Source of the DNA: a bacterium
Lineage (GTDB): Bacteria > JACRDZ01 > JAQUKH01
Length of the DNA stretch: 52,437 nucleotides
Assembly (NCBI GenBank): GCA_028719205.1
Contig: JAQUKH010000001.1
Location: forward strand, 144,603 to 197,039
Direction of reading: 5' to 3'
Shown: in pieces, positions 13,438 to 43,608 of the stretch
Layout: the number at the start of each line of letters is the position of its first letter
Position numbering within the stretch: the stretch's first letter is position 1
Made by a program: the position numbers and the translations under genes
The notes under the pieces: model-generated
What the model saw: only the letters and a program-made list of their open reading frames with translations
The model's database searches: none
Told to the model about the DNA's origin: nothing

Positions 13438-14655
13438 ATGAGATATATTTTATTACATACAATCTTGTTTACATTTCTGATAAACGCCGCTTTTTCATCA
13501 GATCTTTCCGTTATTCAAACAAACAAAATTTCTCAAATTCAGCTTGCTTTAGCTGATAACAAATTAGATTTAAGATCTTTTAAAATTAATTTAGCCGGCA
13601 GGATCTTAAATCAGCCTATTATCCTGACCCCTGAAAATCTTGGAGAATGGGGAAAGATCTATTTTGAGGTTATTCCGCCTGATAACTATTCTTCAACGTT
13701 AAGTATTGACATATCCATAGATGCGGTTACATTCCGGAAAACCTCAAAAAATTCATTCTATTTTGAATTTGAGCCTGAAGATAATAAAACATATATAATT
13801 ACTATGCGTGTTTTAACAAATGATAACGCGGAAATAAGAACATTCAGGGAATATCCGATAACTTTTATAAGATTCCCTGAAAAACATTATTCTCAGCTCA
13901 TAAAGAATATTATTACAATAGCATTTAACAATAAAGATCCTTCTGCTTTTTTAAAACATCTTTCAAACACGTATACTGACCCTGAAAATAACCGTTATGA
14001 TGAAATAGAAGACAAATTAAACCTGGAATTTAAAAAATATAGTAATATTAAATTCACAATAAAAAATTTTGAAATCAGCAGATTGGATTCGGTAAAATTC
14101 AAGGTAACGTTTGAATGGACCAAATCATATGAAAAAAATGATGGAAATAATATTGAAAATATATTTGGAAAATCAATTTTTATTTTTGAAAATGACCTTA
14201 TAATTCAAACAAGCGGTGACTCAATATTTATGGATTCATCTGTAAATAAGCAATTATCTGCGAATTCCGGGGTGCTTAAAGGCGGAACCGTTAATCTGAC
14301 GCCGAATGAATCTTTTGAATTTTTAACAGAAACATTTTATAAAAATGACAGGTTTAAAGGCGATATAGCAGTAAAAAAAGACGGTAATTTTTTATCATTA
14401 TACGTTCCCGGAGGCGTGATACAGGATATGGGAATAACAGCATTATCGGAAATCAAAGAGGCACCTGAGACTGGATATTCAGAAGAAACACAGGTGATCA
14501 TTGGGCACAGCTATTGTCTCCGGAATAATAACAATAGATTCGCAAAACTTCAAATTACTTATGTTGAAGGCTCCGAAATCGGACAAACCTCCGTTCTTGT
14601 CAGTATAAATTGGATCTATCAGGAAAAAGAATGCAGGATATTAAGGCCTCAATAA
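13438..14655 (+). CDS. Exported protein of unknown function
   Basis: 405 residues with a cleavable signal peptide (MRYILLHTILFTFLINAAFS, cleavage near residues 20-21). The rest is soluble and beta-rich. I do not recognise a family. Residues about 155-260 (beginning SQLIKNIITIAFNNKDPSAF, including LKHLSNTYTDPENNRYDEIE) alternate helix and strand and could be a nuclear-transport-factor-2-like fold, but this is a guess. The start is fixed by the signal peptide, and no Shine-Dalgarno sequence precedes it. Its stop overlaps the stop of the convergent dockerin gene by 7 bases, so no terminator can lie between them. Confidence 0.7.
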   Translation: MRYILLHTILFTFLINAAFSSDLSVIQTNKISQIQLALADNKLDLRSFKINLAGRILNQPIILTPENLGEWGKIYFEVIPPDNYSSTLSIDISIDAVTFRKTSKNSFYFEFEPEDNKTYIITMRVLTNDNAEIRTFREYPITFIRFPEKHYSQLIKNIITIAFNNKDPSAFLKHLSNTYTDPENNRYDEIEDKLNLEFKKYSNIKFTIKNFEISRLDSVKFKVTFEWTKSYEKNDGNNIENIFGKSIFIFENDLIIQTSGDSIFMDSSVNKQLSANSGVLKGGTVNLTPNESFEFLTETFYKNDRFKGDIAVKKDGNFLSLYVPGGVIQDMGITALSEIKEAPETGYSEETQVIIGHSYCLRNNNNRFAKLQITYVEGSEIGQTSVLVSINWIYQEKECRILRPQ

Positions 14656-17612
14656 CTTTTTCCGAAACTGTTTCCTAAAATATACAGATCACTTCCGTCT
14701 ATTATTTTATCTTTATTCAGGTCAGCTTTCGGATTCCAGGTGCTTTCTCCCTGCGTTTTACCGAATGAAGATCCAAAAATAGAAAGATCCTCGCCATCTA
14801 TGATATGATTTAAATTAAGGTCTGATATTTCTATTGAATTCAAAAAGTAAATATTATCCCATTCAACAATTATACTGAAATCGCGTTTTGAATCTCCGTC
14901 CTGCCAATCAATCGCGTAATCTTTTATACCTGCCATATCTATTTTTTTATCTTCTTTTTTATCATAAAGAATTACGCGAAAATTAAGCGGCGGATTAATA
15001 ACATCCCAGGATAAGGTTGTTTTATCTTTAACATTAGTTTCAATTACAAAATCAAAGTTTGTAATCTCTAAAGCGCCAAAATTCCCGCATGCACGGTAAT
15101 CAGTTCTATATCTTCCATTATCCTTCCCCCAATCTGAATGAGGAAAATATAACGATACATAGCTTTCTACCGGAGGCGGTTCAGACAGATCATTGAAATC
15201 ATATCCGTTTTTCGCGCCGGGTAGAAATCCAAGATAATTTTCATTATCAATATAATTCTTTGACATTACTTTTAGTTTTAATCCCCACCCGTCATTTTTT
15301 ACTTTACGGGAAGGTGAATTTACAGTCATTAAACCGGTGGCATTAGCGTCATATTTTGGGAAAACAATAGTTATATCTTTATCACTTCTATTTTTAACCC
15401 AAAATCCAATATCCGGTGAAATAGTGGTAAGATCCAAATATGATCTTTTAGCGTTGGTAGTATCATAATCATATGTCAAAAACTGATTTTCAAGCCAGAT
15501 ATTAGATGTATCAGTGACATATATCTCAACAGTATCTTGTTTAACCTTGATCTTTGAACTTGCAATTTGGTAAGCGAATGGATCAGCAATTTGCGTCCAA
15601 CCGGGAGATAAAGAAATTGCAGAAACTTTATCAGGGTCAACAGAAGCACCGTTTACTTTAAGCGGTAACGTATCAGGTATATTATCTCCCTTAATTTTGA
15701 GCCAGAAAGCATCACCCGGATCAAAAGTTGTATCATAGTTATTAGAATATTCTTTTTTTGCGGTATTCCACCGGTAAACTCTTCTATCTTCCGATAAGCT
15801 TAACGCGTAATCAATATTTGAGCTGTCAAGGACCAATGGGAAGGAAACCATTTTCCATGTCCACGTAGGAAAAGGAACGGTATAACCGGCAACTTTAACG
15901 CTCAAATTTCCCACAACTTCTTTTTTATTATCCGCCCAATCAGTCGCAATGATCTTGTAAGAAATTCCCCTGGGGGTAATATATTCTTTTGGAATTTTTA
16001 TTGATTTTGTTAATTTCAGTATAGATAAACCTCCTTCCGTATATATTGGAACAAAGGCATTCTCACCTTCCCCGTTTTTCTTAACAAAAAATTCGCCTTT
16101 TGTTAAAGCGATATTGTCAGAGACAGTAACAGTTACATAAGAATCTTCACCGTTATTTAGTAAACCAAATAGATCAGTTCCTTCAATTTTAGGAACGGTA
16201 GTATCAAGGTTTAAATTAAGTGAAGTTACCGTTATAATTTTTGAATCTGATACTTTTGAGCCGTTATTATCTGTTACCCGGACTTTTGGATGATATGTAC
16301 CTGAGGAACCATAAATATATATAGCGGTATTTACATTATTATTTGTAAGATCGTATGTTCCGTTCCCGTCAAAATCCCATTCGTATAATGTAATTGAACC
16401 GTCATAATCAACTGCATTTGCGGTAAAGTTAATAGTTAATGGGAATCCCCCCGTGTCATGATTTGACGTTATATTTACTGCAGGTGGAAAATTTCTTTGA
16501 GTATATTTTGTGTTTGATTTGGGAAATGGATAATTATAAAAAACTACGCCACAAGTTCCAAAACTATCAGAAGAATCATAAATGCAGTTATTGATTATAC
16601 TATTATCAATAGTGCTCCACCAATTGTAATAAACAACATTTAAATCATTAGGCGAATTATTAACAAAATAATCGTTATTAACCGCACCTGTATCAAAAAT
16701 AAAGTTATTATATAAAGCATATATATTTGCGGAACTGCCTGTATTATAAATCCCTAATCCATCATTTGCGGAATTATAAGCAAGAGAACAACTGTCAAGA
16801 AAAAGTGTGCCATTATCGTTATATGCCGCACCACCATAATTAGCTTTATTATAATATAAGTTGCTTTCAAGAATATTAACCTGACTGTTATCTGATAATA
16901 ATATCCCGCCTCCGTTTTCAGTCATCAAGCCACAATTTCTTATTTCGCTGCTTGAAATAATAATTACCGAAGAAGGCGCGGCTTTAATTCCGTGTTTCGC
17001 ATTTTCCAAAATTGAGTTACTTAAAAACCCGATTGAAGAAGTATCAAATAAAATCCCTTCCCAATCTCCCGTTTCTAAAGAAGTAAATCTTATAAAATTA
17101 TTGCTTTCACCGATGGCATATAGCGCACCCTTTACATTAAAATGCGCGCTCGAACTAAATTTCAGCTCTGAGCCTGCTCCAATTACTAAAACAGCGCCTG
17201 TATCTATTACAACATCCGAAGTAATAAAATATTCGCCGGGGATTAAATTAGCATAACCGGAAATTGTTCCTGATAAATTATTTATGGTCTGTTGTAAAGC
17301 AAATATTTCTGTTGTGTCTGCGCCAACATAATTTGTTCCACTATATACTTGTACTTTCGGATAATAAATTCCTACTGTATTATAAGTATAAACCGCCGTA
17401 CTTTCCGTATTGCTTGTTTCATAAGCCCCATCTCCATCCAGATCCCATTCATAAATGTAAATCGCTGGGGCAGTAACTTCAACTCTAAAGTTTACTTGTA
17501 ATGGGGCAACTCCGCTATTTTTGTCATACAACAAACTCACATCCACTGCGGATAATGGGGCTTGCAATAAGCTTAATATTGCTATGATTAATAAAATATT
17601 TATTTTTTTCAT
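14649..17612 (-). CDS. Secreted PKD/beta-helix protein with C-terminal type I dockerin
   Basis: About 987 residues from the ATG at 17612, chosen because MKKINILLIIAILSLLQAPL is a signal peptide and the ATG sits one base after the FecR stop; the longer frame from 17663 adds an unlikely basic stretch. Order: PKD domain (YIYEWDLDGDG), a right-handed parallel beta-helix (many short SSIG/SSE/NSQVN turns), a second PKD domain (YEWDFDGNGTYDL), Ig-like and other beta-domains, and a C-terminal dockerin. Both dockerin loops keep calcium ligands at 1, 3, 5 and 12: DLNLNHIIDGED and DLNKDKIIDGSD. Dockerins bind cohesins, and a cohesin lipoprotein is encoded at 43039-43608. Beta-helices often bind or cleave polysaccharide; no catalytic site was identified. 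It is probably exported to the cell surface. Confidence 0.85.
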   Translation of the reverse strand: MKKINILLIIAILSLLQAPLSAVDVSLLYDKNSGVAPLQVNFRVEVTAPAIYIYEWDLDGDGAYETSNTESTAVYTYNTVGIYYPKVQVYSGTNYVGADTTEIFALQQTINNLSGTISGYANLIPGEYFITSDVVIDTGAVLVIGAGSELKFSSSAHFNVKGALYAIGESNNFIRFTSLETGDWEGILFDTSSIGFLSNSILENAKHGIKAAPSSVIIISSSEIRNCGLMTENGGGILLSDNSQVNILESNLYYNKANYGGAAYNDNGTLFLDSCSLAYNSANDGLGIYNTGSSANIYALYNNFIFDTGAVNNDYFVNNSPNDLNVVYYNWWSTIDNSIINNCIYDSSDSFGTCGVVFYNYPFPKSNTKYTQRNFPPAVNITSNHDTGGFPLTINFTANAVDYDGSITLYEWDFDGNGTYDLTNNNVNTAIYIYGSSGTYHPKVRVTDNNGSKVSDSKIITVTSLNLNLDTTVPKIEGTDLFGLLNNGEDSYVTVTVSDNIALTKGEFFVKKNGEGENAFVPIYTEGGLSILKLTKSIKIPKEYITPRGISYKIIATDWADNKKEVVGNLSVKVAGYTVPFPTWTWKMVSFPLVLDSSNIDYALSLSEDRRVYRWNTAKKEYSNNYDTTFDPGDAFWLKIKGDNIPDTLPLKVNGASVDPDKVSAISLSPGWTQIADPFAYQIASSKIKVKQDTVEIYVTDTSNIWLENQFLTYDYDTTNAKRSYLDLTTISPDIGFWVKNRSDKDITIVFPKYDANATGLMTVNSPSRKVKNDGWGLKLKVMSKNYIDNENYLGFLPGAKNGYDFNDLSEPPPVESYVSLYFPHSDWGKDNGRYRTDYRACGNFGALEITNFDFVIETNVKDKTTLSWDVINPPLNFRVILYDKKEDKKIDMAGIKDYAIDWQDGDSKRDFSIIVEWDNIYFLNSIEISDLNLNHIIDGEDLSIFGSSFGKTQGESTWNPKADLNKDKIIDGSDLYILGNSFGKSY

Positions 17613-17613
17613 T

Positions 17614-19152
17614 CTATCTGGCCTTTTTATTAGCTTTATCCGGCGGCCCCGGCGGCAAATCATTTACTTTAAATTCCCTGAAATATCTCATCGATTTATT
17701 ACCTAACATATCTTCCAATTCTACAGAAACTTTCCAATTCCCATCAGCCTTTCTGCCAAGAAATTTATATGGTGTTACCGTTATTGCGTATTTTTTCAAA
17801 CTATAATCATATTGCATAACTAATTGGAAGGAGCTCCCATTCTGGTGAAATAAAGTCAAATTTATATATTTTTTCATTTCTGAAAATTCATCGTCAGCTT
17901 CAACAGATATTTCAACTGATTCTTCTATATTAACCGGGTTTGGCGTAATATTAAAACTCGTTAAATTTGGAGGGCGCGTATCCAGATAAACCACCCTGGT
18001 TTCTCTGCTTTCATTTCCCGCTCCGTCAACAGCGCGAAATTCCAGGATATTTTTACCTTCATTAAGCATATAATTAGTATTAATAATACCTGCAATTAAA
18101 TGAATTTCCTGCCCATTAATAAAAAATTTGAGTCCTTCCTTCGCAACGTCATATTTATAAATAGTCTGAATACTTTTTTCACCATCTTTATTAACAGAGG
18201 TAAAACTAAAATTTATATTCCCCCCCGTTGCCCTGTCAGTTACTAAACCGACTATTCTTAAATTTCTGTTATTTGTAGCCCTCTTTCCAAATTCAGAAGT
18301 TGTGACCTTAATTATTGGAGGAGAAGTATCTTCACCTGTATTTATTGTGAAATTAAAATTACCATTTTCATCTGATTTTGTTGTAAGCGATTGTCCTGTA
18401 GAAGAGACCATATTAATCGTATTCCCGGGATCTGCCTGGCCTTTTATACTTGCCACACCTTTATCATTTTCAACAGATAATATTTTTGGAGAATTAATCT
18501 CCCCTTTTTTAATTAATTCTTCCTTTGCCTTTTCCAGATTTTCAAAACGTTCGAAATCAGAACCTGAAAGGACCCCGCTCCCGATAAAAGCTCCATCTAT
18601 ACCGACCAGAAAATATTTATTTTCTTCAATTACCTGTTCCCCTCCCGTTTTTATCGAACGCACATAACCTAAACCGCTCTTCAGCCCGATCCATGTCTCT
18701 CCATTTGGCTCAACGTGGATAAATACCGTTGTTCCCCGGAAACCAACCAGCGCTACGGGCGTTTCTATCTCAAAAGTATCTCCCTTTTTTAATTTCTCAA
18801 TTTTTCCGACCAGATCTCCGGCAAATAATTTAAAAGAAAATTTCTTTGTATTTGATTTATTATCCGTAAACAATTTTTGTATATCAAAAGTTGTATTTTC
18901 ACCAATATTAAAGATACTGTCATCAGGAAGCCTTAATTCAACCTTAGTTTTAAGCCTTGTCCTGATGCGGTCTTTCGGATAAAGCATCATTTTAAGCTTA
19001 ACATCTTCCCATTCTTGCTTTTGAGCTCTTTTTGCCTCAGCTTTACCTTCATAATAAATAAGCTGAGCTTCTTCTTTGGTTTCTTTTGCCGCAAATGAAT
19101 ATACCATTGGCATTATCATCAAAACTAAAATAACAAATTTAATATTTCTCAT
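17614..19152 (-). CDS. FecR-domain periplasmic protein with Ig-like domains
   Basis: 512 residues. A signal peptide (about 1-22) is followed by a FecR domain (about 30-190) with KDRIRTRLKTKVELRLPDDS, the aromatic strand motifs of FecR, and ETPVALVGFRGTTVFIHVEP. Two or more Ig-like beta-sandwiches follow: GVASIKGQADPGNTINMVSS and later LDTRPPNLTSFNITPNPVNI. There is no N-terminal anti-sigma segment, so it is not a classical FecR regulator. FecR-domain proteins are often encoded next to CHASE2 cyclases, as here. The intergenic space before it holds a palindromic repeat; an AGGA site precedes the ATG. Confidence 0.8.
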   Translation of the reverse strand: MRNIKFVILVLMIMPMVYSFAAKETKEEAQLIYYEGKAEAKRAQKQEWEDVKLKMMLYPKDRIRTRLKTKVELRLPDDSIFNIGENTTFDIQKLFTDNKSNTKKFSFKLFAGDLVGKIEKLKKGDTFEIETPVALVGFRGTTVFIHVEPNGETWIGLKSGLGYVRSIKTGGEQVIEENKYFLVGIDGAFIGSGVLSGSDFERFENLEKAKEELIKKGEINSPKILSVENDKGVASIKGQADPGNTINMVSSTGQSLTTKSDENGNFNFTINTGEDTSPPIIKVTTSEFGKRATNNRNLRIVGLVTDRATGGNINFSFTSVNKDGEKSIQTIYKYDVAKEGLKFFINGQEIHLIAGIINTNYMLNEGKNILEFRAVDGAGNESRETRVVYLDTRPPNLTSFNITPNPVNIEESVEISVEADDEFSEMKKYINLTLFHQNGSSFQLVMQYDYSLKKYAITVTPYKFLGRKADGNWKVSVELEDMLGNKSMRYFREFKVNDLPPGPPDKANKKAR

Positions 19153-40943: not shown

Positions 40944-43037
40944 TTATTTTCCAAAATTCATCGCAAGTAAAGCCAGGTCATTCCCGTCAATTATCAGATC
41001 TTCATTTAAATCCGCGTAAAGATTCCAATTGGAATTTTGAGGATTAGATCCGAAAGCTTTTGCCATATCATATAAATCATGGCCGTCAACACGGTCGGCC
41101 GAACCCGAAGAAACCGTATCAATATTACCCATAGGCTTGCTCAAATATTTAAGCCCGATAGCCATAACCGCTTCAGCAATTGCTCCATCACTATAAGTGA
41201 CCTTGACCTTGACATTATATGTACCTATTATATTATAGGTGAAGTTTAGGGTCTTAACGGTTGTTGTTGTCTCATATTTATCATCCCCATTAAAATCCCA
41301 TTCGTATTTAATAATATCGCCGTCTAAAGCTGTTGTATCAGCGGTAAAATTCACTAACCAGGGTGAATGGGATAAAATTTCGGCTGTAAGTTTTACTACC
41401 GGCTGTTGAACAAGTGAAATTTTCGCGGTCATGATATCGCCATAATTCGAAACACCGGTAATCGCGATCCTGGTATGAGTATTATTTTTTAATCTGGAAC
41501 CGGGGATTGTATCATTAGTAAAATCCGAATTATTTCCTGAAAAGAAAAACATATTCTTATCGAGAGGAGTTTGTTCGGTATCCAACTGACTGAAGCCTAA
41601 AATACCTTCATCGGCCTCTTCAACATCCACACCTTTATCGTTCACATCAGCATTAACATCGTTAAAGTTGAAGTTCGAAGACGTAAGTTTTGAATTATCA
41701 ATATGATAAATAACCACTCCTCCGTGGCCTGATGCCTCTTCAAAACGCTGGAAGCCCATGTCATATCCTGAAAACTGCCGGTTTTCCAAAAGAAAATATT
41801 GATCCGGATCTGATGTGTTAACCCGGAAAACAGATGAACCATCACTGTCAGTCTTTGGAAGCGTAATATCCTGTCCGGAATCTATTGTTGTTACTTTCCC
41901 CCATGAAAGATATTCTTTACTCCATGCTGATAATTGTGTAGGCATAGACCCGTGAAATTCTCCTGTTTTTGATGCCCAGCTGCCATTTCCCATTAAATCA
42001 AAAAATCCTACGCCATAAGAATCCCCGTTTCCAGGATTGGTATCGTATAAATCCGGCAGTGAAAAAATTAAATGTCCGAGTTCATGCGCCATTATTCCGA
42101 TAGTAGCAAGGTGATCTCCGTGCCTTTCGCCTATTTCACAATAGTCCTCTATCGTTATCGTACTATCAACTATCGGATAACCTACCGAAAACATAGACCA
42201 TCGATGGCCCCAGATTGATGGTGCAGCAGGACCCGCGGAACGTTCATATCCCGCGACAATAATTATAATTGAAAGCTCATCAGTAGAAATAGTACTATCC
42301 TTATTGTAATCGTACGATGCATAGTTAATATATGGATCTGCTAGTGTAATCGCGTCTTTGGCAATCTGTTGATTCGTAGAATCAGAAATAACATCAGTAG
42401 AATCACCTGTATTTGGATGTTTGTAAGGCAAATGCAGCCACCCAATTATACCGTCATCTGTTACCCCGGAGGTTTCAGACGCAGGACTAATGGATACCGC
42501 GGAATATGACACTTTTTGATAATAGTCCGAAACACTGCTGGTTTCTCCAAAAAATAAAGGTTGAATATCCAACGGGTCATATGTTCCGGCAGTATCTAAA
42601 AAATCAACACAGATAACTAATAGCTTTCTGTCTCCCGCAACCGGATTACTTTCGGTTAAACTATTTCTCGAACCAAAATCGATATTACCATTTCTATATT
42701 TAATTGATTCTTTCTTAACAGACTGGTATGAATTCAAACCTTTGGGTATATTAAATTTAGAAGGCTCTACTTCCCCGACAACCAGCCTTGAAACATTATC
42801 GGACTGATAATATTCCCAATTGCCGTTAGCCGCGTTTTTGTAAATTCCATAACCTTCTTTTGTTGTGATCCAATTATACCTTTCATCACCATGAAGCCTT
42901 GCTTTAAAAGTTTTCCCGGAAGGTTGCTTTAATATAATAAGGTTATTATCAGCCGGCCCGGCATTTGCTTTTAAGGATAAACCTAATAATAGAAATATCG
43001 ACAAAAACAAAATTTGCCTGTTCATCATTATTTTCAT
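40944..43037 (-). CDS. Secreted M6 family metalloprotease with PKD domain and C-terminal dockerin
   Basis: 697 residues: signal peptide (about 1-26), peptidase M6 domain (about 130-450), beta region, PKD domain (about 555-630, IIKYEWDFNGDDKYET) and C-terminal dockerin (about 645-697). The zinc motif is H318-E-L-G-H322 followed by PDLYD, and SYGVGFFDLMG is the Met-turn. Residues 243-254 form an EF-hand-like loop, DYNKDSTISTDE. The last dockerin loop, DLNEDLIIDGND, keeps all calcium ligands; the first (SADRVDGHDL) is degenerate. It starts one base after the cohesin gene; an AGGA site favours the ATG three codons in. It is probably docked at the surface by the cohesin lipoprotein. Confidence 0.9.
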   Translation of the reverse strand: MKIMMNRQILFLSIFLLLGLSLKANAGPADNNLIILKQPSGKTFKARLHGDERYNWITTKEGYGIYKNAANGNWEYYQSDNVSRLVVGEVEPSKFNIPKGLNSYQSVKKESIKYRNGNIDFGSRNSLTESNPVAGDRKLLVICVDFLDTAGTYDPLDIQPLFFGETSSVSDYYQKVSYSAVSISPASETSGVTDDGIIGWLHLPYKHPNTGDSTDVISDSTNQQIAKDAITLADPYINYASYDYNKDSTISTDELSIIIIVAGYERSAGPAAPSIWGHRWSMFSVGYPIVDSTITIEDYCEIGERHGDHLATIGIMAHELGHLIFSLPDLYDTNPGNGDSYGVGFFDLMGNGSWASKTGEFHGSMPTQLSAWSKEYLSWGKVTTIDSGQDITLPKTDSDGSSVFRVNTSDPDQYFLLENRQFSGYDMGFQRFEEASGHGGVVIYHIDNSKLTSSNFNFNDVNADVNDKGVDVEEADEGILGFSQLDTEQTPLDKNMFFFSGNNSDFTNDTIPGSRLKNNTHTRIAITGVSNYGDIMTAKISLVQQPVVKLTAEILSHSPWLVNFTADTTALDGDIIKYEWDFNGDDKYETTTTVKTLNFTYNIIGTYNVKVKVTYSDGAIAEAVMAIGLKYLSKPMGNIDTVSSGSADRVDGHDLYDMAKAFGSNPQNSNWNLYADLNEDLIIDGNDLALLAMNFGK

Positions 43038-43038
43038 C

Positions 43039-43608
43039 CTATTGATAATTTAAACTCCCGCCGATCCATGATGTGCCGGCGATATTGGGATTATGCGCGT
43101 TTGATGATTTCAAAGCGCTATTCTGGACATTAAATCCTATAGCAGTATTCGCCTGCGTTGTTAGCGCCCTAAAAACAATAGTAACTAACGTTCCATCTCC
43201 ATTTGCGCCCGGAACATCTCCTTTTTTATCACTACCGACCAGTAAGGTACCTTCCTTTCCCCTATCCAGCATAGCGGAAAATACAATATCTCCTTCCGTA
43301 CCTAAATAATCTCCTTTTCTTAATGATATATAGTTTATTTTACTGCTATCGTATGTTATTTCAATCGCGGCACCATATACATCCGTCCCGTTTTTTACCT
43401 TAACAGCTAAATTTATCTCATCATTATTTATTGAAACTTGTTCTAAATATACTGTATTATCTGAAGGGGTGCCTGAAGGAGTGAAAGAAATTGTATCACC
43501 TGTACCGGTAAGCGGCATTGATGACCCGCCACCGCTTTTGCCACAACTGTTCAAAATAAATAGGACTGAAATACTTATTATACTTATTAAAAACTTAAAT
43601 CTTCTCAT
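43039..43608 (-). CDS. Cohesin-domain lipoprotein
   Basis: 189 residues. The lipobox ILNSC places the lipidated Cys at residue 22. A Gly/Ser/Pro-rich linker (about 23-50) leads to one cohesin domain (about 52-187), seen as VYGAAIEITYDSSKI, YLGTEGDIVFSAML, LLVGSDKK and LVTIVFRAL. Cohesins bind dockerins. The gene is first in its operon, and the next gene, one base away, encodes an M6 protease ending in a dockerin. One cohesin per lipoprotein fits a single-enzyme surface anchor. The assignment comes from pattern, not a profile search. Confidence 0.8.
   Translation of the reverse strand: MRRFKFLISIISISVLFILNSCGKSGGGSSMPLTGTGDTISFTPSGTPSDNTVYLEQVSINNDEINLAVKVKNGTDVYGAAIEITYDSSKINYISLRKGDYLGTEGDIVFSAMLDRGKEGTLLVGSDKKGDVPGANGDGTLVTIVFRALTTQANTAIGFNVQNSALKSSNAHNPNIAGTSWIGGSLNYQ

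Follow-up and report, generated by a model that had tools for sequence, protein, structure and literature searches.

Single-cohesin anchoring proteins of the OlpA and ScaE kind are Gram-positive proteins held by SLH, sortase or helix anchors, and they stand within larger cellulosomal sets. Cohesins and dockerins also occur in many microbes without cellulose degradation. Both modules are already known, as are single cohesins at the cell surface and occurrences outside the cellulosome (PMC9012536, PMC10553843, PMC8542988, PMC11557425). Single-cohesin proteins with a C-terminal helix have been described in Lachnoclostridium (PMC11557425), and non-cellulosomal cohesins and dockerins in Cloacimonadota (PMC8542988), in ANME archaea and in the sulfate reducers that accompany them, where adjacent cohesin and dockerin domains are also mentioned for the sulfate reducers (PMC9012536, PMC10553843). 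A 2017 review states that what cohesins and dockerins do outside the cellulosome is unknown (PMC5244752).

The gene pair analysed here, encoding a cohesin lipoprotein and a dockerin-bearing M6 protease, lies in a stretch of 52,437 nucleotides (the window; positions 144,603 to 197,039 of contig JAQUKH010000001.1, assembly GCA_028719205.1). We consider it probable that the lipid-anchored cohesins of this genome, each monovalent, hold exported proteins with a dockerin tag at the outer membrane, with lipidation, calcium-dependent 1:1 binding and location being inferred and no binding data available.

The cohesin lipoprotein and the M6 protease

Both genes are on the minus strand, the cohesin gene first and the protease gene after a gap of one base, with the following features.

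43039..43608, minus strand: lipoprotein of 189 aa with a single cohesin domain, encoded by the first of the two genes (PF00963 and AF2 model)
43543..43545, minus strand: lipobox cysteine Cys22 (ILNS/C), with Gly at +2 (sequence)
43108..43425, minus strand: cohesin domain, residues 62-167 (Pfam), the fold extending to the C-terminus
40944..43037, minus strand: secreted M6 metalloprotease of 697 aa with a C-terminal dockerin, its gene separated by 1 base from the stop codon of the cohesin gene
41751..42617, minus strand: M6 catalytic domain, residues 141-429 (TIGR03296, 174.4 bits)
42072..42086, minus strand: zinc-binding motif HELGH, residues 318-322
41175..41408, minus strand: PKD domain, residues 544-621 (PF18911, PKD_4, 34.7 bits)
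40947..41132, minus strand: dockerin, residues 636-697, with an insertion-type loop 1 and a canonical loop 2

The Pfam profile PF00963 matched the cohesin protein over residues 62-167 with 41.6 bits (E 1.8e-10; curated cut-off 24.1), which, together with Cys22, bears out the initial annotation, where a lipobox protein with one cohesin-like domain had been recognised and this profile named as a check at 43039-43608. The AF2 model (pLDDT 91.1) has the standard cohesin jelly-roll fold, superposes on type I and type II cohesins with Z of 15-17 (for 6KGC_A, Z 17.5 with 135 residues superposed at an rmsd of 2.2) and has the non-cellulosomal Archaeoglobus cohesin 2XDH as its top Foldseek match, and a profile of the cohesins matched the solved structures 3L8Q (1e-11) and 2Y3N_A (6.9e-5). 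The N-terminus, MRRFKFLISIISISVLFILNSC followed by GK, reads as a lipoprotein signal with Cys22. By the criteria of a lipobox, no Asp at +2, and the presence of Lol and an outer membrane, the protein qualifies as an outer-membrane lipoprotein, the localisation itself being inferred; genes for LolA and Omp85 are present in the genome. Scans for promoters and terminators around the pair gave nothing decisive: a promoter-like match lies upstream of the cohesin gene (43646-43617, minus strand), and similar matches are frequent in the same AT-rich stretch.

Regarding the second gene, the protein has its own signal peptide, carries HELGH and scored 174.4 bits against the NCBIfam M6 model TIGR03296 (cut-off 110.8), in agreement with the secreted metalloprotease that had been read one base after the cohesin gene. 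The Pfam profile Dockerin_1 (PF00404), named alongside the cohesin profile as a check, fell short at its C-terminus (16.8 bits, under the cut-off of 22.9), whereas dockerins elsewhere in the genome exceeded the cut-off with 31.6, 25.5 and 24.8 bits. The identity of the dockerin is secure despite this score, because a profile of eight dockerins from the genome matched the solved type II dockerin 2Y3N_B (E 2.2e-16) and the AF2 model of the dockerin (pLDDT 91) superposed on 2Y3N_B with Z 6.5 and an rmsd of 1.4 A over 47 residues, meeting the fold class criterion of a two-helix fold related to solved dockerins; the cohesin and dockerin profiles match the two chains, A and B, of one co-crystal, 2Y3N. 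The dockerin had also been credited with an intact calcium loop, which is true of loop 2 (DLNEDLIIDGND), a canonical calcium loop, but not of loop 1 (GNIDTVSSGSADRVDGHD), which, compared with the dockerins of related genomes, has an insert of five residues and in which ligand positions are altered, so that two canonical 12-residue calcium loops are not present.

Neighbouring cohesin and dockerin genes in this and other genomes

The assembly (2.59 Mb, 68 contigs), whose phylum was represented by only four genomes in the comparison, has 13 cohesins in 13 ORFs, one each, and 13 dockerin matches. Eleven cohesins are lipoproteins or lipoprotein-like, the remaining two lying in a pilus/secretin cluster; all lipid-anchored cohesins are monovalent, Asp at +2 is missing from every one of them, and no multi-cohesin scaffoldin was found among the 13 cohesin ORFs of an assembly that is 92.7% complete. 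Seven of the 13 cohesins adjoin a dockerin gene, six directly (C1, which is the pair of the window, C24, C8, C31, C30 and C3) and one by inference across contig ends, C46, in which the cohesin gene adjoins a propeller gene broken by the contig end; the continuation with the dockerin probably starts contig C10, a join that rests on common repeat sequence and is not assembled. Both gene orders were found (cohesin first in C1, C8 and C46, dockerin first in C24, C31, C30 and C3), with gaps, where measured, of -11 to 50 bases. This adjacency cannot be ascribed to chance, as 0.13 pairs would be expected among about 2300 genes and 200,000 shuffles gave four at most, none reaching seven.

Several lipid-anchored cohesins and several dockerins have no adjacent partner, and pairing in trans is therefore possible; one such dockerin protein is encoded in the window.

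14649..17663, minus strand: second dockerin protein of the window, 1004 aa, with PKD and without a cohesin neighbour, a possible client in trans

Genome G001 has a dockerin ending (L101) similar to that of this protein. A PKD-PKD-cohesin lipoprotein without a dockerin neighbour (L021:11518-12636, G000:C24) has a cohesin domain 72% identical to that of the window and is possibly a longer-armed socket. At L025:11690-14234 (G000:C10), a secretin (PF00263) with a C-terminal cohesin domain is followed by a second cohesin protein, a non-lipoprotein, next to pilin-like genes, and a similar long cohesin protein occurs in the same setting in related genomes (L104, L105); the secretin cohesin might bind dockerin cargo during exit. 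Incomplete dockerins were also seen, one as a fragment directly after an intact dockerin (L025:1545-1634), apparently a decayed duplicate, the other in a propeller-like protein (L095:6498-7646, G000:C17) whose dockerin ends before loop 2 is complete and which is possibly truncated.

The paired proteins of the genome have only the dockerin in common and are otherwise unrelated, comprising the M6 protease, an S8 subtilase with LVIVD repeats, an RCC1 propeller, a BNR-like propeller, a DUF5122 propeller with cadherin, a VWA/CLCA-like protein that has a HELGH of its own, and a secreted dockerin-only protein; glycoside hydrolase families were not found in any annotated dockerin protein of the genome. 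Invariant ends combined with varying middles point to a tethering cassette. Among related genomes, the sister genome G001 has a cohesin lipoprotein followed by an M4/M36-like protease and another after a dockerin-only protein, and G002 has a cohesin lipoprotein after a 2597-aa FG-GAP/fibronectin protein. Secreted proteins consisting of little beyond a signal peptide and a dockerin adjoin a cohesin lipoprotein at L028:4430-4858 and L097:181-507, and at L028 the dockerin-only protein is followed by a large one containing DUF5060 and CBM_4_9 domains.

Cohesin and dockerin subtypes go together. Six A1-type cohesins have a dockerin neighbour, these cohesins being 50-60% and their dockerins 52-66% identical to those of the window, and all six dockerins are of the insertion type, while the dockerins of four pairs with other cohesin types are without the insert. 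Cohesin and dockerin distances correlate over 11 pairs (r=0.86, p=5e-5) and within the six A1-type pairs (r=0.60, exact p=0.028), although part of this co-segregation may come from joint duplication of whole cassettes.

A survey of 386 genomes drawn from across the domain found a cohesin in 74 and a dockerin in 100, and the short cohesin ORFs collected from the matches included 11 lipobox single cohesins outside the phylum. Eight of these adjoin a same-strand gene with a dockerin-type calcium loop (P 4e-5, the background being 8% of long ORFs), and half of the eight partners are M6 proteases. One of the eight, L170 of G222, is similar to the pair of the window, with 44-49% identity in the dockerin and 27-28% in the cohesin, and has propeller-like cargo. 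In the phylum of G305, lipobox single cohesins were present in 10 of 10 genomes examined, and an M6 protease gene overlaps or touches the cohesin gene in 15 of 30 loci taken. In all 15 proteases the pro-region contains a dockerin-like loop, at residues 95-141 and ahead of HExGH, of which one protein has no exact match in the available part; against the dockerin profile the pro-region gave hhalign probabilities of 81-88%, with E values, as single comparisons, of about 1e-5, and it is termed dockerin-like because only one loop, a half-module, is present.

L183-L189, L193-L197, L203, L206 and L210: conserved lipo-cohesin/M6 operons of the other phylum, M6 with one dockerin-like pro-region loop

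The M6 protease of the window stands closer to M6 proteins found in its own phylum (35%, 30%), in which no dockerin was seen (the G003 copy is broken by the locus end), suggesting from sequence comparison that the pairing of cohesin and M6 protease probably arose at least twice. In three other genomes (L136, L172, L179) the protein that follows a lipo-cohesin is VWA-like and has both a dockerin-type loop and a tail of T9SS type A. Two narrower readings were rejected: that the pairs are confined to the source phylum, since a narrow two-loop dockerin pattern misses wide and half dockerins and pairs were found elsewhere, and that the window holds a single odd operon, given the repertoire across the genome and the recurrence in other genomes.

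Proposed tethering mechanism and alternatives

The cohesin lipoprotein would be exported by Sec, lipidated at Cys22 and, because Asp is missing at +2, probably delivered to the outer membrane by Lol. Export of the M6 protease would rely on its own signal peptide, and the C-terminal dockerin of the protease would bind the one cohesin in a calcium-dependent, 1:1 manner, by which the protease would be retained at the outer membrane. Least certain is the outward orientation of the docked complex, which is inferred; a cargo of 700 aa, whose export route is unknown, could stay periplasmic. What the computation shows directly is the domains and their folds, the layout of the operon, the recurrence of such pairs with cargo of unrelated kinds, and the co-segregation of subtypes. 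As the same socket-and-plug serves six or more further exported proteins, the general function would be the tethering and display of cargo, not the regulation of one protease, and six more pairs with unrelated cargo, together with the protease pairing repeated elsewhere, suggest one-socket, one-plug tethering and not a cellulose-digesting complex. The initial annotation had likewise proposed a docking system other than a cellulosome, and this is the best-supported reading, on the strength of the lack of a scaffoldin and of glycoside hydrolases in the annotated dockerin proteins, the repeated pairs with unrelated cargo, the subtype co-segregation and the recurrence in other phyla, with binding and outward orientation inferred; the docking system is wider than was then supposed, because the protease is one cargo of several.

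A more far-reaching version is offered only tentatively, namely a general diderm protein-display system in which each dockerin client is held at the surface, with private specificity, by its own neighbour-encoded lipid-anchored cohesin, the cassettes duplicating and swapping cargo and M6 proteases having been adopted at least twice, once with a C-terminal and once with a pro-region dockerin. Were specificity private, seven natural pairs of cohesin and dockerin would be available in one genome, and distant phyla would share the tethered M6 protease as a module. The gene-pair layout predicts the binding partners, and the question is thus directly testable on small purified domains.

Possible to a similar, limited degree is a promiscuous arrangement, in which any insertion-type dockerin is bound by all A1-type lipid-anchored cohesins and neighbours are merely co-expressed. 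The identity of the paired modules to those of the window would allow this, as would the existence of unpaired insertion-type dockerins (C7, and late in C24) and unpaired A1-type cohesins (C24b, the one 72% identical to that of the window, and C8b, at a contig end), but the genes stay adjacent whichever of the two comes first and also where the subtypes diverge, and the distance correlation is positive even within the six A1-type pairs. Docking might also take place inside the periplasm, with the lipoprotein at the inner leaflet and without any exit of the dockerin protein; we think this less likely than not, since InhA-type M6 proteases, subtilases, VWA proteins and adhesion-like propellers are usually extracellular and some lipo-cohesin partners elsewhere bear T9SS tails, although a lipobox alone does not confer surface exposure and an element for surface export could not be identified in the pair.

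Two further explanations fare worse than these. That the cohesin lipoprotein serves the M6 protease alone, as inhibitor, zymogen anchor or chaperone, is improbable: the same cohesin type is paired in this genome with RCC1, DUF5122 and other non-protease proteins, and the dockerin of the window is C-terminal, distant from the active site in sequence, even if the recurrent lipo-cohesin/M6 operons of the other phylum have their dockerin-like loop in a pro-region whose removal would free the enzyme. A cellulosome-like multi-enzyme complex could be invoked on the grounds that cohesins and dockerins define cellulosomes and that a scaffoldin may have been missed in the incomplete assembly; with no ORF holding two cohesins, every lipid-anchored cohesin monovalent and no glycoside hydrolase family in the annotated dockerin proteins, this reading was rejected and has hardly any likelihood left.

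Comparison with known systems

Tethering by lipid-anchored single cohesins, the reading preferred here, shares its modules with the type II complex of (Pseudo)Bacteroides cellulosolvens (2Y3N) and the type II cohesins of Acetivibrio (3L8Q, 1QZN), to which both modules are related by profile and on which the folds superpose. In those systems enzymes are linked to multi-cohesin scaffoldins, whereas the arrangement found here has a single cohesin with a lipid anchor and lacks a scaffoldin, and its cargo consists of proteases or propellers. In having a single cohesin, the lipoprotein resembles OlpA and OlpC of C. thermocellum and ScaE and ScaG of R. flavefaciens, several of which have a cell-surface anchor, but it differs from them in carrying a lipobox in a diderm and in being encoded beside its presumed client. 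Like the non-cellulosomal cohesins and dockerins of Archaeoglobus fulgidus (2XDH), of ANME archaea and sulfate reducers, and of Cloacimonadota, the pair stands outside cellulose degradation; those reports, in their accessible parts, describe multi-cohesin or fused proteins, unlike the lipoprotein-cohesin/dockerin gene pairs found here. No description of such gene pairs or of the pairing with M6 proteases was found in the open-access literature, subscription literature being outside the scope of the search.

A functional parallel may be drawn with T9SS and other sorting tails (choice-of-anchor proteins), in which a C-terminal module likewise attaches varied exported cargo, and the M6 homologue of the sister genome apparently ends, as judged by eye, in a FlgD/T9SS-like tail instead of a dockerin. 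These tails differ from the arrangement described here, in which receptor and ligand would pair non-covalently and each client has the gene of its receptor next to its own.
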